In this document: piece by piece, positions 5,639-13,210 of the stretch
Layout of the letters: each line of letters opens with the position of its first letter
How positions within the stretch are numbered: the first letter of the stretch is position 1
DNA from: a bacterium
Lineage (GTDB): Bacteria > Armatimonadota > UBA5829
Assembly: GCA_021373255.1 (NCBI GenBank)
Contig: JAJFTD010000180.1
Location: 1 to 32,700 of the forward strand
Length of the DNA: 32,700 nucleotides
Direction: 5' to 3'
Translations under genes and position numbers: made by a program
Notes under the pieces: model-generated
Database searches by the model: none
Told to the model about the DNA's origin: nothing
The model's input: the letters and a program-made list of their open reading frames with translations, nothing else

Positions 5639-5720
5639 GAGTCCAGTCAGGAGAGCCAGCAAATTTGAAGATCAAGCCAGAGCAATTATACAACTGCTCT
5701 GGCTTTTGTTGTGTTTGCTG
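5639..5720 (+). repeat. Dispersed stem-loop repeat, copy 1 (terminator-like)
   Basis: Perfect 11-bp stem AAGCCAGAGCA (5674-5684) / TGCTCTGGCTT (5695-5705) with a 10-nt loop and TTTT at 5704-5707, preceded by the shared box TTTGAAGATCAA and by CAGGAGAGCCA. Lies 3' of the dedA-like gene and can act as its rho-independent terminator. Sequence outside the stem, and the loop itself, recur at copies 2-4, so it is a repeat family rather than an isolated terminator. Confidence 0.85.
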
Positions 5721-5785
5721 TGAGCACGGATGCTGGAATAAGGGACACACTCGGCGAGAGGGAGGGAGTGTCTATATAGAAGAGG

Positions 5786-5816
5786 TTGGCAGAACCTCGG
5801 CGACAAATGTTATAAT
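5786..5816 (+). promoter_or_regulatory. Candidate promoter of the secreted glycosidase-like gene
   Basis: TTGGCA (5786-5791) and TATAAT (5811-5816) with a rather long 19-bp spacer. It would give a leader of about 90 bases. Confidence 0.45.
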
Positions 5817-5912
5817 GACATTTATTCCGTGAACTATATATCTTTGCTGGTTTTGTTCATATAAGTAAGGAAAACTGAGATCATCGAATGAAGGGTGGTA
5901 TTAGGAAAAGAC

Positions 5913-8735
5913 ATGGTCAGGTTTTTTATATGCTCCGTCATATTGGTTTTGCTAACAATGGCATCTTCGTATGCAAAAGACACTGTGCTATTACTGAACG
6001 ATAGCTTTCCAGACACATCAAAGGTATTCATCGAGCGGCTTAAAAACAGCATACCCAGTGATGATTTTGATGTTAAAGTCGTAGACCCAGCCGGGTTGGT
6101 TTCGTGTCTTGATAACGTAGCAGGCAACGGCTCAATACTTGTTTTGCCGAATTCAAGATACTTTCCAGCCGATGCAATTTCTAATTTGGACGAATTTCTA
6201 AAGCGAGGAAATAACCTGTTCGCTGTTTCCGGGCCGATGTTGTCCAAGCCTGTAATCAAAGAAGACGGTCTTTGGGTCGATGCTGTTTCGGGTATAAAGC
6301 CTCTGATCCTGGAGTCCATTTGCCCTCCGTACAAAACCTATACGACCAATGCCGCCTATGTTAACATCGTGGGTGACAAAAAGCAGTATTCCATTCAAAA
6401 ATCCGTCTGCATAGCATTGCCGAGAAGCCGTGGTTATTTATGCGATAGCCTCCACAAATGGCGTCAAATCCCATTTGCCTATGCTCTTGATGCGAATGGA
6501 AAGAACAGAGGTGTAGCCGGAGAGCTGTTCTTGAATAACTCGGGAGAGTATTCACGCTCAATATGGGGGTATCTCGGGATTGAGCAATCGGATATTGAGA
6601 ATGCTTTGGATGTGTACATTCCCGCAATCGTTACTCAGCTCAAAAGGATGAAGAATGGTGTCTTCATAGCCAACGCTGGGTCTGATGCGTTTGGTTATGC
6701 CGCCGGGGAGAAGACTCGGCTGGGAGCGTATGTAGCCAATTTATCAAGAAACCCTGCTGATGTTTGTGCGGATTTTCAGGTATACTCCAACAAGCGAGTT
6801 ATGTTCTCTTCCTCGACGACTGCACAGGTCTCATCAGGCTCAGACGATGCGGTGGCATTCATTTCCGGTAAAAGCATAAAACTGCCCGCTGGAGAGTATA
6901 TTGCAAAAACTACACTTCGTATTGGTGGATCGGTTGTAGATGAGACATCGCAGAGTTTCAACGTAATCAATTACGGCAAGTTGCCGGATGCAGAGATTGT
7001 CAAAACAAAAAACGGTGATTTTCATCTGGACGGCAAGGTATGGCATTCACTGGGAGTCGGATATTTTCCGTATTACGTATCGGGCCTTGAGCCGAATGAC
7101 TACTGGGAGCAGTATTGGTCGAATTATTTCTATGATCCAGACGTAATCGAGCACGATCTCGCCCTTATGAACGACCTCGGGATAAACACAATCAGCATAC
7201 AGTATAACCTGCTTGATCAGGCGAGACCTGTTATGGATCTTCTTGCGCGGGCACACAGGCATGGCATAAAGGTTCATCTTTATATGCCGGGTCTGCATCC
7301 TCTTAAGCAAGATCTAAAATTAGCCGCCGGCATGATAAAAGCCGCACACTTATCTCAAAGTCCAGCCATGTTTGCCTATGATCTCGGTTGGGAGGTTTGT
7401 GTCGGAGTATTTAATGAGCGAAAGAAATACGACGGGCTCTGGCAGCAATGGATCATCGACCAATACGGCAGTGTCGATATTGCTCAGCGCGATTGGAACT
7501 ATGTTCCCGAAAAACAGGACGGTGTCGTCATCTGTCCAAGCGACTATCAGCTTACAAACAACGGCGTGTGGAACACATATGTGGCGGCGTATCGGCGATT
7601 CTGGGATGATGAGATAAGCAAACAATACGCTAAAGTGCGCAGGTTTGTGAAGTCGCTGGACCCGAATCATCTGGCCGGGGCACGCAGCGGTTATGGTGGA
7701 ACGGGAGCGCTATGCGTTGCGGGGATGCTTCCGTTCGATCTCGCGAGTGGTGCAAAGCATCTCGATTTCATCTCACCCGAGGCATACAATCTCAGTGGTG
7801 GTCGCATCGACTTTCTCAAGTCCGGAATGACCGATGCCTATGGGCGGCTTGTAAGTGGTGGTAAACCAGTTTACTGGGCGGAGTTCGGCATTCCGCTATT
7901 CTTGAATGTGAAACCTGGCGCATATCGCTCTGAGATGAGTATGCTCAATATGGATAGGCAGTATGATTATGTTAATAATATGGTAAGCGCTGTCCGCGAG
8001 GTCGGTTCTAATGGCTGTGCGGTATGGTGGTGGGCGGGAGGGTATCGCTGCGACGAAAAGAGCGATTTCGGAATTGTCGCCCCCGACGGCTCACCAAGAC
8101 CCGCCGCGCATGAGATCGCCAATGCCTGGAAAAAATCAGCACTGATTGGCAATCGATCAAAACCGGAAGTGATCTTTACGATTGATCGTGATCTTTATGC
8201 ATCAGGTTACGCCGGAATGTATGACGCATATTCCGCTCAGTTTGCTGATTCGTTGGCAAATGGACGTGGCGCTGGTCTTCGGACTGCTGGGACAAAAACA
8301 ACCTCTTCAGATGCTCCACTCACATTGGTGGGCAATGTGCCGTATGAAGGCCATGGCCCTCTAAAGTATCTAAATGCTGAGTTTAATCGTCTCAAAATAA
8401 ACAGCAAGCTGGTGAACAGCGGCGACAGTGTCGAGATCAAGCCCGGTGACCCAATTATTATAAGTGCGAGTGTAGGTAACACTGGCGAAGCGACATGGCT
8501 TGCGAAAGGGGTAAACCAGACCGGCGGCGTATGCTTGCTGGCGAGCTTTGGCGACAAAAGAACGACGTGTGCAATAAAGTCAGATGCAAAATATCTATCA
8601 GATGCTATCGTCCCTAAGTTCAAAGTGGGACAAATGACAAGCGCGCCTGAGAGTTTGATTATCCGAATGGCTTGCACCAATAGAGCGGAGTTTGGAGAAA
8701 TAATCAGAATAAGACTATTGCCGGAAAGGCATTGA
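5913..8735 (+). CDS. Secreted clan-A glycoside hydrolase-like protein, multidomain
   Basis: 940-aa exported protein. Order of parts: signal peptide (1-21, ending SSYA); an N-terminal alpha/beta region (about 22-115) resembling a glutamine-amidotransferase/ThuA-like fold; a beta-rich linker to about 360; a TIM-barrel region (about 370-745) like clan GH-A (GH5/GH42-like); and a C-terminal Ig/CARDB-like domain (about 815-930, SASVGNTGEATW). Candidate catalytic pair: acid/base E494 in YDLGWEV and nucleophile E657 in VYWAEFG, followed by the W-rich strand AVWWWAGG. The ATG at 5913 was chosen because it opens a clean signal peptide and follows AGGA by 6 bp; an in-frame GTG at 5895 lacks a site. Likely acts on an extracellular polysaccharide, but the substrate and family number are not determinable. 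It has its own promoter and terminator. Confidence 0.75.
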   Translation: MVRFFICSVILVLLTMASSYAKDTVLLLNDSFPDTSKVFIERLKNSIPSDDFDVKVVDPAGLVSCLDNVAGNGSILVLPNSRYFPADAISNLDEFLKRGNNLFAVSGPMLSKPVIKEDGLWVDAVSGIKPLILESICPPYKTYTTNAAYVNIVGDKKQYSIQKSVCIALPRSRGYLCDSLHKWRQIPFAYALDANGKNRGVAGELFLNNSGEYSRSIWGYLGIEQSDIENALDVYIPAIVTQLKRMKNGVFIANAGSDAFGYAAGEKTRLGAYVANLSRNPADVCADFQVYSNKRVMFSSSTTAQVSSGSDDAVAFISGKSIKLPAGEYIAKTTLRIGGSVVDETSQSFNVINYGKLPDAEIVKTKNGDFHLDGKVWHSLGVGYFPYYVSGLEPNDYWEQYWSNYFYDPDVIEHDLALMNDLGINTISIQYNLLDQARPVMDLLARAHRHGIKVHLYMPGLHPLKQDLKLAAGMIKAAHLSQSPAMFAYDLGWEVCVGVFNERKKYDGLWQQWIIDQYGSVDIAQRDWNYVPEKQDGVVICPSDYQLTNNGVWNTYVAAYRRFWDDEISKQYAKVRRFVKSLDPNHLAGARSGYGGTGALCVAGMLPFDLASGAKHLDFISPEAYNLSGGRIDFLKSGMTDAYGRLVSGGKPVYWAEFGIPLFLNVKPGAYRSEMSMLNMDRQYDYVNNMVSAVREVGSNGCAVWWWAGGYRCDEKSDFGIVAPDGSPRPAAHEIANAWKKSALIGNRSKPEVIFTIDRDLYASGYAGMYDAYSAQFADSLANGRGAGLRTAGTKTTSSDAPLTLVGNVPYEGHGPLKYLNAEFNRLKINSKLVNSGDSVEIKPGDPIIISASVGNTGEATWLAKGVNQTGGVCLLASFGDKRTTCAIKSDAKYLSDAIVPKFKVGQMTSAPESLIIRMACTNRAEFGEIIRIRLLPERH

Positions 8736-11078: not shown

Positions 11079-11513
11079 CTACGGCTCCTCGACGTCCCTG
11101 CCAAGTTCCGCAATAACATCGTCAGTTAAAGCTGCATTAAACTCGTCCCACCGTGCCTTGGTCCATATCTCGACTTTGTCGGTGAGCCCGATTACCCATA
11201 GCGAATCGCCGCCTTTTATTCCGGCGTGGTTCATTAGCATCTGGGGGATGGCTACTCTCCCCTGCCTGTCCGGCACACACTCGCTCGCAGCTCCCAGGAA
11301 GTATCTTTCCAGCTTTACTCCTCGGTCATCCAGCAGCGATTTTGGTGTCAGTTTCTGTTGTACATCGGTCCACGCTCGCTCGGGGAAGACCCACAAACAC
11401 CCGTGCAGGCCCCTTGTCATCACAAACTTCTCGCCTAGCTTCTGCCTGAAGCGGGCGGGGATGACAGTTCTGCCTTTATCATCAACAGTATGTTCGTAGG
11501 ATCCGGAAAACAA
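11079..11513 (-). CDS. mraZ: MraZ transcriptional regulator
   Basis: 144-aa MraZ, made of two SpoVT/AbrB-like halves: DDKGRTVIPARFR at 11-23 and DRQGRVAIP at 82-90, the paired DXXXR-type motifs of the family. MraZ forms a ring and binds 10-bp-phased direct repeats (TGGGN separated by 5 nt in E. coli) at its own promoter. The start is TTG at 11513, with GGGAG about 9 bp upstream. It follows the Zn-finger-like gene by 16 bp and is clearly co-transcribed with it. Unusually, no rsmH/ftsL/pbp genes follow: the transcript ends at a hairpin and meets a convergent gene. Regulation is probably by the box array at 12171-12210. Confidence 0.95.
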   Translation of the reverse strand: MFSGSYEHTVDDKGRTVIPARFRQKLGEKFVMTRGLHGCLWVFPERAWTDVQQKLTPKSLLDDRGVKLERYFLGAASECVPDRQGRVAIPQMLMNHAGIKGGDSLWVIGLTDKVEIWTKARWDEFNAALTDDVIAELGRDVEEP

Positions 11514-11529: not shown

Positions 11530-12144
11530 TCACGAAAGGTCCTTGACTTTGAAACGCATTGGCTGCTTTCTCGACGGGCATCTCACCAGCTCGGCGCGCG
11601 CAATTTTCTTGAAATCACGCTGATCCGCCGCGAGCAGTGACCTGATAAACTCTTTATTGCTCGGAGCGGCAGCCTCGGCGGTGCAGCTTGCGCAATAGCA
11701 TCTGGACAGGAACACCGATCCATCCTCGCGGGTCATGTTGACCAGCGTGGTGGGGAACGGCTCCACCTTGCCGCAGATGTTGCAGCGCGAAACGGCGTGA
11801 AGTTTGCTGCCGGTATTGCCGGAGAGCTCCGTCACTATGCGGTAGATGAGGTCATCAAACGAGCGCTGCGTTACCACGAACGCAAAGTTTTCCTTGAGGA
11901 ATGATTCTATCTCGTCCAGCACTGCCGCATCCGACTCATGCGCCTGCACGGCATAACTGACCAACTTGCCCTCGCACAACTGCAATACCTGCACCTGCGA
12001 TTGCAACTCGGCGAAAAGGTTGTCGATCTCATGCGCTTCATCGTCGGAACGCGTTTCAACCAGGTAGACCGCCCTCAAGCCGCCGGGTTGAGGATCGACG
12101 CTGATTTCGCGAACTTTTTCCACTGACCCCTCTGGTCTAGGCAT
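11530..12144 (-). CDS. Cys-rich (zinc-ribbon-like) protein upstream of mraZ
   Basis: 204-aa protein of unrecognised family. The N-terminal two thirds (to about residue 115) form an alpha/beta domain without Cys clusters. The C-terminal third carries C121-X2-C124 (CNIC) and C149-X-C151-X2-C154 (CYCASC), spaced like a treble-clef or zinc-ribbon metal site. The ATG at 12144 is preferred over 12150 because AAAGGAG then sits 8 bp upstream. It is first in a two-gene operon with mraZ (16-bp gap) and is expressed from the promoter at 12208-12236. A regulatory or RNA/DNA-binding role is only a guess from the metal site and the pairing with MraZ. Confidence 0.75.
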   Translation of the reverse strand: MPRPEGSVEKVREISVDPQPGGLRAVYLVETRSDDEAHEIDNLFAELQSQVQVLQLCEGKLVSYAVQAHESDAAVLDEIESFLKENFAFVVTQRSFDDLIYRIVTELSGNTGSKLHAVSRCNICGKVEPFPTTLVNMTREDGSVFLSRCYCASCTAEAAAPSNKEFIRSLLAADQRDFKKIARAELVRCPSRKQPMRFKVKDLS

Positions 12145-12170
12145 TGCCATGGCTCCTTTAGGCTAACATT

Positions 12171-12210
12171 ACCCTTATCTACCACAATCTACCACTGTCT
12201 ACCCCAGATT
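12171..12210 (-). promoter_or_regulatory. Putative MraZ operator: four 10-bp-phased boxes
   Basis: On the minus strand, four cores (GGGT, TGGT, TGGT, GGGT) begin exactly 10 bp apart; on the plus strand ACCC/ACCA start at 12171, 12181, 12191 and 12201. The spacing and TGG(G/T) core match the direct-repeat boxes known for MraZ. They cover the predicted transcription start and leader of the Zn-finger/mraZ operon, a position that fits repression. Confidence 0.75.
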
Positions 12211-12236
12211 ATATTGTATGCTTGCCATACCGTCAA
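12208..12236 (-). promoter_or_regulatory. Strong sigma70-type promoter of the mraZ operon
   Basis: Minus strand TTGACG (12236-12231), 17-bp spacer, perfect TATAAT (12213-12208). Predicted start near 12201, inside the MraZ-box array. Confidence 0.8.
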
Positions 12237-12320
12237 GCGATTACAGGCATGTTTTTCTGCTTTTTTCTGTACGCGCTCGGCGCTGATGTAATTCATTGCC
12301 AAAGCGAGCTCAATATTTGA

Positions 12321-12350
12321 AATGGTGGCTTGTGGTAGATTGTGGGTAAT
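12321..12350 (+). promoter_or_regulatory. Second MraZ-box-like array facing the divergent gene
   Basis: Plus strand TGGT, TGGT, TGGG cores begin at 12323, 12333 and 12343, again exactly 10 bp apart. The 14-mer GTGGTAGATTGTGG (12332-12345) is identical to one in the first array in inverted orientation (12195-12182). It lies about 55-80 bp upstream of the start of the divergent membrane-protein gene. Confidence 0.65.
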
Positions 12351-12391
12351 CAGCTTCATAACTGGTTATGCGCCTTCGGTGTAAATTCATG

Positions 12392-12397
12392 TATAAT
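12392..12397 (+). promoter_or_regulatory. -10 box just upstream of a possibly leaderless gene
   Basis: Perfect TATAAT ending 6 bp before the ATG at 12404, which would put the transcription start at or within a base or two of the start codon. No consensus -35 is visible 16-18 bp upstream. Confidence 0.5.
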
Positions 12398-12403
12398 AAG
12401 CGT

Positions 12404-13210
12404 ATGAGTAAAGAGATGACCGCCCCGAGGCGCGTGAACTTATTGAAATCGCTGGGTCGGGGCTTTAAATGTGCTTATGACCACTTGGGCTATGTGGTCT
12501 TTGTAACGCTGGCGTCATTTGTCCTTACGGCGATGGTCCTGAGCCTGACAATGGTGGTCAAAGGTAAAACAGTGCCCTTCGCCGCGACGGTCTTTGTGGC
12601 GGTGTTGGTCAGTTGGATGTGCGCTGTGGGGGCGTTTTATTATGCCAACAGAGCTGTCTATTATGAACATCCGGGGATATTGGACACGCTCACAGGAATC
12701 CGAGTGCTGGCGCTGCCCGCATTGAAGTTATTCTTGATTGATATATTGGTGCTGGCTGTGCTCGTATGCGATGCTGTTTTTTTTCTGGGGCTGGCTATAT
12801 CTAATAAGAGCCTACTGTTCGCGATGCCTGGGGTGCTGTTCGGTTATGGCGCGTTGATCTGGATGATGATGGCTATGTATCACCTGCCTCTGCTGCCGGC
12901 ACAGCTTGATATGGACTCCGGCACAGGCCCCTGGGTGATCATTAAAAAATCGTTTCTTTTGATGGCAGGCAGCCCCGGCTTTACAGTGGGTCTGTTTCTT
13001 GTTATAATCGCGTTTGCTGTGATATGCGCCCTACCTGTATTGATCGGAACAGCGATCATTTTCATGGGCGCCGCCGCGTTCGTCCTCACCCACGCCCTTC
13101 GCGAACTGTTTATCAAATATGGAGTGGTGGAGGAAGAGCCGGAAGTCATTGATGACTCCTGGCCGAACGTGGACGATAAAGCCAATAGCGAAGGGACTAC
13201 TGCTCATTGA
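12404..13210 (+). CDS. Polytopic membrane protein, possibly YesL/DUF624-like
   Basis: 268-aa integral membrane protein with about six hydrophobic segments: around residues 30-50, 58-80, 105-130, 135-160 and two between about 190 and 235, then an acidic cytoplasmic-looking tail (VVEEEPEVIDD). The topology and the basic loop before the fifth segment (IIKKSFLLMAGSP) recall the YesL/DUF624 family, but this is a weak resemblance and no function follows. The ATG at 12404 is chosen because of the TATAAT directly upstream; there is no ribosome-binding site, and in-frame Mets exist upstream at 12368 and 12389 and downstream at 12416. Divergent from the mraZ operon, sharing a control region with MraZ-like boxes. 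Confidence 0.75.
   Translation: MSKEMTAPRRVNLLKSLGRGFKCAYDHLGYVVFVTLASFVLTAMVLSLTMVVKGKTVPFAATVFVAVLVSWMCAVGAFYYANRAVYYEHPGILDTLTGIRVLALPALKLFLIDILVLAVLVCDAVFFLGLAISNKSLLFAMPGVLFGYGALIWMMMAMYHLPLLPAQLDMDSGTGPWVIIKKSFLLMAGSPGFTVGLFLVIIAFAVICALPVLIGTAIIFMGAAAFVLTHALRELFIKYGVVEEEPEVIDDSWPNVDDKANSEGTTAH

Follow-up and report, generated by a model that had tools for sequence, protein, structure and literature searches.

The 32,700-nucleotide stretch of armatimonadotal DNA analyzed here, which we call the window, carries a two-gene operon on the reverse strand, orf206 followed by mraZ2, and a divergent gene for a membrane-protein-like product on the forward strand (Table 1). Placed between them are two arrays of short boxes, inverted with respect to each other, in each of which the boxes recur at a period of exactly 10 bp. 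Few bacterial regulators are as conserved as MraZ; in E. coli, it recognizes TGGGN boxes separated by 5-nt spacers. Both arrays in the window have the organization of MraZ operators, namely direct repeats at a 10-bp period with a GTG/TGG core. An initial annotation of this DNA had described two inverted, phased arrays that share an identical 14-mer, a description borne out by the sequence, by pattern counts and by shuffles, with box coordinates correct to about 5 bp.

Table 1. Coordinates of genes, promoter elements and boxes in the window
Feature	Position	Strand	Description
mraZ2	11079-11513	-	MraZ paralog outside the division/cell wall (dcw) cluster; two MraZ domains; second operon gene
orf206	11530-12150	-	First operon gene; uncharacterized; four invariant cysteines, zinc-ribbon-like
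Array 1	12166-12205	-	Four 10-bp boxes; proposed MraZ2 autoregulatory operator over predicted transcription start
Array 1 box 4	12175-12166	-	AGGGTAATGT
Array 1 box 3	12185-12176	-	GTGGTAGATA
Array 1 box 2	12195-12186	-	GTGGTAGATT
Array 1 box 1	12205-12196	-	GGGGTAGACA
-10 hexamer	12208-12213	-	TATAAT; 17-nt spacer; -10 directly before array in 18/18 loci
-35 hexamer	12231-12236	-	TTGACG; TTGAC-like hexamer at matching place in other 17 loci
Array 2	12322-12351	+	Three 10-bp boxes; this genome only
Array 2 box 1	12322-12331	+	ATGGTGGCTT
Array 2 box 2	12332-12341	+	GTGGTAGATT; same as array 1 box 2
Array 2 box 3	12342-12351	+	GTGGGTAATC
-10-like element of membrane gene	12392-12397	+	TATAAT, 6 nt before ATG; similar in most orthologs
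Membrane-protein-like gene	12404-13210	+	Divergent; no Pfam family; in most family genomes

The shared 14-mer, GTGGTAGATTGTGG (12182-12195 on the reverse strand and 12332-12345 on the forward strand, 150 bp apart and inverted), has two exact copies in the window and two in the whole 4.19-Mb genome. A three-box phased pattern, defined post hoc when the arrays were already known, has three matches in the window, all within these arrays, where shuffles predict 0.02. Array 2 is statistically non-random. Three forward-strand boxes at 10 bp arise in a fraction of 0.0004 of shuffled intergenic copies, and array 2 is the second-best match in the genome to a model of array 1 (genome-wide E = 0.485), from which we calculate the chance of such a match inside the 253-bp gap as about 3e-5. 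Arrays 1 and 2 are the only two good arrays in the genome. No Rfam match was found within the window.

Box 1 of array 1 begins 2 nt past the -10 of a TTGACG-N17-TATAAT promoter, and this placement of the -35 and -10 supports the earlier suggestion that the array overlaps the start, itself predicted, of the operon transcript. What had been called the mraZ operon does contain mraZ2, but its first gene is orf206 rather than mraZ.

A MraZ paralog outside the division cluster

Three MraZ proteins are encoded in this genome. The single rsmH adjoins the copy on contig C28 and is followed by a penicillin-binding-protein-like gene, and the C28 copy is the mraZ of the dcw cluster. Since rsmH lies beside that copy, and since the window gene has orf206 upstream on the same strand and a downstream neighbor on the opposite strand, the mraZ of the window is an orphan paralog, MraZ2. 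It does not adjoin rsmH at the head of a dcw cluster, nor does it group with dcw MraZ proteins in phylogeny: in a tree of 46 proteins, 16 MraZ2 sequences cluster in a single clade (99/94), separate from 27 dcw MraZ. The rsmH neighbor on C28 and the separate clade rule out the window gene as the dcw copy, and the premise of a division-cluster mraZ in the initial annotation was thus wrong. Because mraZ2 itself lies outside dcw, the membrane protein, which was described there as a target beyond the division cluster, does not extend a dcw regulon. Branching inside the MraZ2 clade matches the family labels, an order that fits vertical descent.

The MraZ2 protein matches PF02381 in two stretches (6e-32, 109.9 bits against a gathering score of 23) and TIGR00242 (109.5 bits against a cut-off of 98.35), and falls below the threshold of the longer PRK00326 models. 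The DxxGR...P loop is present in the first repeat and its DxxGR part in the second, with D11, K13, R15, P19, D82, Q84, G85 and R86 invariant among eight MraZ2 sequences. Because the TIGR00242 cut-off is exceeded, automatic annotation would call mraZ2 a division-cluster repressor, which is misleading. Literature searches for orphan MraZ or for Armatimonadota MraZ returned nothing relevant among the papers listed. The third MraZ-like protein, also outside dcw, is encoded on contig C105 (L007 7357-7773, genome G000), with a CheW-like gene a few genes further on and no clear phased array upstream; genome G242 has two near-identical copies of this third type (L190 and L191; contigs C24 and C109).

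The partner gene orf206 is present in 8 of 15 family genomes, with mraZ2 located 3-103 nt downstream in all eight, and it appears to be tied to MraZ2 only through the operon. Its product has no Pfam or NCBIfam match. Four cysteines in a CxxC...CxxC arrangement are invariant across 11 sequences, and the AlphaFold model (pLDDT 89.6) shows beta and alpha elements alternating in the N-terminal part, after which comes a small beta element that bears cysteines. There was no convincing match among PDB folds, the best Foldseek hit being ACT/ferredoxin-like (E 5e-3, TM ~0.3). In one relative (G001, L042 895-1362), the reading frame of orf206 is broken by a stop, unless the assembly is at fault, and mraZ2 and the array are intact.

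Conservation and predicted role of array 1

Every one of the 18 genomes read, which reach up to class level, has boxes at 10 bp directly past the -10, and the array there covers the predicted start of mraZ transcription. Seventeen have three or more boxes at this period, for which shuffles give an expectation of about 0.002 per promoter, and G240 has a weaker form of two boxes. In relatives, the boxes read GGGGTA or GTGGTA and begin 2-4 nt past a TATAAT-like -10, which is itself preceded by a TTGAC-like -35. The 18 loci comprise nine arrays of the family, five found by a model and four read directly (G237-G240, with orf206 and mraZ2 and the same array). Among the nine is G004, which has mraZ2 without orf206 and still carries the array upstream of mraZ2.

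The model was built from the sequences of the nine arrays alone, and it yields one strong match per family genome that has MraZ2 (E 8e-7 to 5e-4), array 1 scoring E = 2.2e-6 in its own genome, in a scan that includes these training loci, array 1's among them, and is circular for them. The six family genomes without MraZ2 give no strong match (best E 1.04). Because the family scan included training loci, the independent test is a blind scan of 291 genomes of the phylum, which revealed five new loci (G241-G244 and G236), all with orf206 directly downstream. In G244, orf206 and the array are on one contig and mraZ2 is on another, and their linkage is unseen in that genome. A weak match in G279 proved to be noise within a pyrG-like coding frame. 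The model scan found no further strong array in the window's own genome or in relatives that would indicate a wider MraZ2 regulon; weak matches are on C10 (E 0.6) and C96 (E 1.4).

The initial annotation had staked its proposal on arrays being present at orthologous loci that keep mraZ, and array 1 survives on this count in 18 of 18 loci. This conservation strongly supports autoregulation of the mraZ2 operon, most likely as repression. The suggestion that MraZ represses its own operon holds insofar as an operator-type array is conserved at the mraZ2 operon in all 18 loci, with repression as its predicted consequence. In Burkholderia cenocepacia, the MraZ site is built of four 7-nt repeats, spaced by 3 nt, that follow the -10 and span the start; the E. 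coli site occupies the same position, and the dcw MraZ binds the mra promoter in Burkholderia and represses it in E. coli (PMC7761207). Array 1 resembles these sites in its 10-bp period and in its placement past the -10 over the predicted start, whereas their target is the dcw operon and the target here would be a two-gene operon outside dcw with a zinc-finger-like gene first. Mollicute boxes, (AAAGTGKN3)3 (PMC5282649; PMC8475190), have the same 10-bp period and GTG core, but they are known from the dcw promoter only, where MraZ is described as an activator, and their box tail differs from the GTGGTAGAT found here. Array 1 matches published MraZ sites in period, core and position, and self-repression is the most likely mechanism. 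Activation of the operon is possible, given that an activating role has been ascribed to mollicute MraZ (PMC7761207), but sites that cover the start favor repression.

Taking the arrays, promoter, gene order, conservation and separate clade together, we infer that array 1 is an MraZ2 operator through which the protein represses its own operon, and that array 2 is an additional, lineage-specific site of MraZ2 type, a reading to which we assign a probability of roughly 80%. In this mechanism, MraZ2 would bind the 10-bp-spaced GTGGTA boxes that begin 2-4 nt past the -10 and cover the start, and the bound protein would block initiation, such that orf206-mraZ2 is self-repressed. Array 2 would either add binding or cooperativity at the orf206-mraZ2 promoter region or be a relict. 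The module of promoter, array, orf206 and mraZ2 would have passed by vertical descent through one class of Armatimonadota.

Array 2 and the divergent membrane-protein gene

Orthologs of the membrane gene exist in ten other family genomes, and none of the ten has a phased array upstream within the sequence searched (about 65-120 bp in G004, G006 and G011, and about 330 bp in the other seven). Array 2 is missing even from G013, in which the gene and orf206-mraZ2 are arranged divergently as they are in the window. Array 2 therefore fails at orthologous loci that keep mraZ, and control of the divergent gene by MraZ, as originally proposed, is unsupported beyond the species of the window; a conserved membrane-gene operator is rejected for the family. 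We also considered that the entire mraZ2 promoter had been duplicated in inverted orientation and rejected this, as the flanks of the two arrays show no significant similarity (341 of 3000 shuffles are equally good). In most genomes with the membrane gene, TATAAT lies 6-8 nt before the ATG without a good -35 (window 12392-12406; L089-L098), and the transcript is probably leaderless, with this arrangement conserved. In G013, long near-palindromic repeats AGAGTTGGATGATCCCTTAAGGGATCATCCAACTCT lie between the membrane gene and orf206 (L038 ~5672-6122).

What, if anything, array 2 does can be weighed among several explanations. It may have no function, having arisen by chance or as a relict, such as a short stretch of array 1 copied locally. 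Its occurrence in one genome only and its non-homologous flanks make this a serious possibility, though one that falls short of being probable, given that an exact 14-mer and a third box in phase are found at odds of about 3e-5 by position and 4e-4 by shuffle. No single function is more likely than a relict. Somewhat less likely is an auxiliary operator of the orf206-mraZ2 promoter, in which a ring-shaped MraZ2 oligomer would bridge the arrays and loop the DNA. MraZ forms octameric rings (PMC7761207), and the identical, inverted 14-mers 150 bp apart belong to the only two good arrays of the genome, but no relative has kept array 2 and the resemblance of the arrays does not extend beyond the boxes. 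It is unlikely that array 2 lets MraZ2 control the membrane gene in addition to its own operon. The array is non-random, oriented towards the membrane gene and closer to it than to the start of the MraZ2 operon; nevertheless, it is placed roughly 40-70 bp ahead of the -10 of the membrane gene and over no start site, unlike the array in all 18 array 1 loci, no promoter-like site was found adjoining it, and orthologs lack it, including the equally divergent one. Any effect on the membrane gene is most likely species-specific at most. We regard array 2 as a possible extra, lineage-specific site with a putative function.

For array 1, it is possible that another regulator recognizes the same boxes, such as the dcw MraZ or the third MraZ. 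That array 1 is mainly the target of one of these (the third being the C105 protein), which would couple orf206-mraZ2 to division, is improbable, even though the proteins belong to the same family and M. gallisepticum MraZ also accepts boxes spaced at 11 bp in vitro (PMC5282649), for strong matches to array 1 are found only where MraZ2 exists while dcw MraZ is present in every family genome, and dcw promoters of the family often bear a different, 11-bp array. Autorepression by MraZ2 through array 1 is the reading that we prefer.

Box spacing at the promoters of MraZ paralogs

Of 27 dcw mraZ promoters read in the class, 9 have three or more boxes spaced by exactly 11 bp, against an expectation of about 0.002 per promoter, and G004 joins them as a tenth once a CTGG core is accepted. 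All ten belong to the order of the window and have (T/A)TGG cores (dcw promoters of relatives in this order: L073-L087, L186 and L189). Like array 1, dcw promoters in this order have TGG-type boxes near the start site, but their period is often 11 bp with (T/A)TGG cores, whereas mraZ2 promoters have a 10-bp period with GTGG or GGGG. The contrasting arrays mean that two MraZ paralogs in one order have promoters that often differ in period. A strict link between dcw spacing and the presence of MraZ2 is broken by family f5, outside this order, which has MraZ2 and dcw boxes at 10 bp, and by G232 and G233, which have two dcw boxes at 11 bp without MraZ2. The dcw mraZ promoter of the window species itself (L008 8360-8540) has two-box runs only.

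One tentative and rather doubtful scenario is that operator geometry prevents cross-talk after a duplication, with MraZ2 using 10-bp GTGG boxes and bridging the arrays of the window, and the faster-evolving dcw MraZ using 11-bp (T/A)TGG boxes. We do not make such insulation our main claim, since the tie to MraZ2 is not strict, the species' own dcw promoter has two-box runs only, and precedent is mixed: M. gallisepticum MraZ bound an 11-bp-spaced site, its spacer changed by 1 nt, comparably strongly in vitro (PMC5282649). MraZ2 and most f5 dcw MraZ, which go with 10-bp GTGG-type boxes, read DxKGR (K13), and most dcw MraZ with 11-bp (T/A)TGG boxes read DxAGRF. Judged by eye, residue 13 is possibly a specificity residue.

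A MraZ paralog outside dcw, with an ancestral-looking 10-bp operator and a dedicated zinc-finger-like partner, offers a means of telling the protein's own job apart from control of the division cluster. Moreover, with paralogs whose operators are spaced at 10 and 11 bp, the specificity of MraZ for box spacing becomes directly testable.
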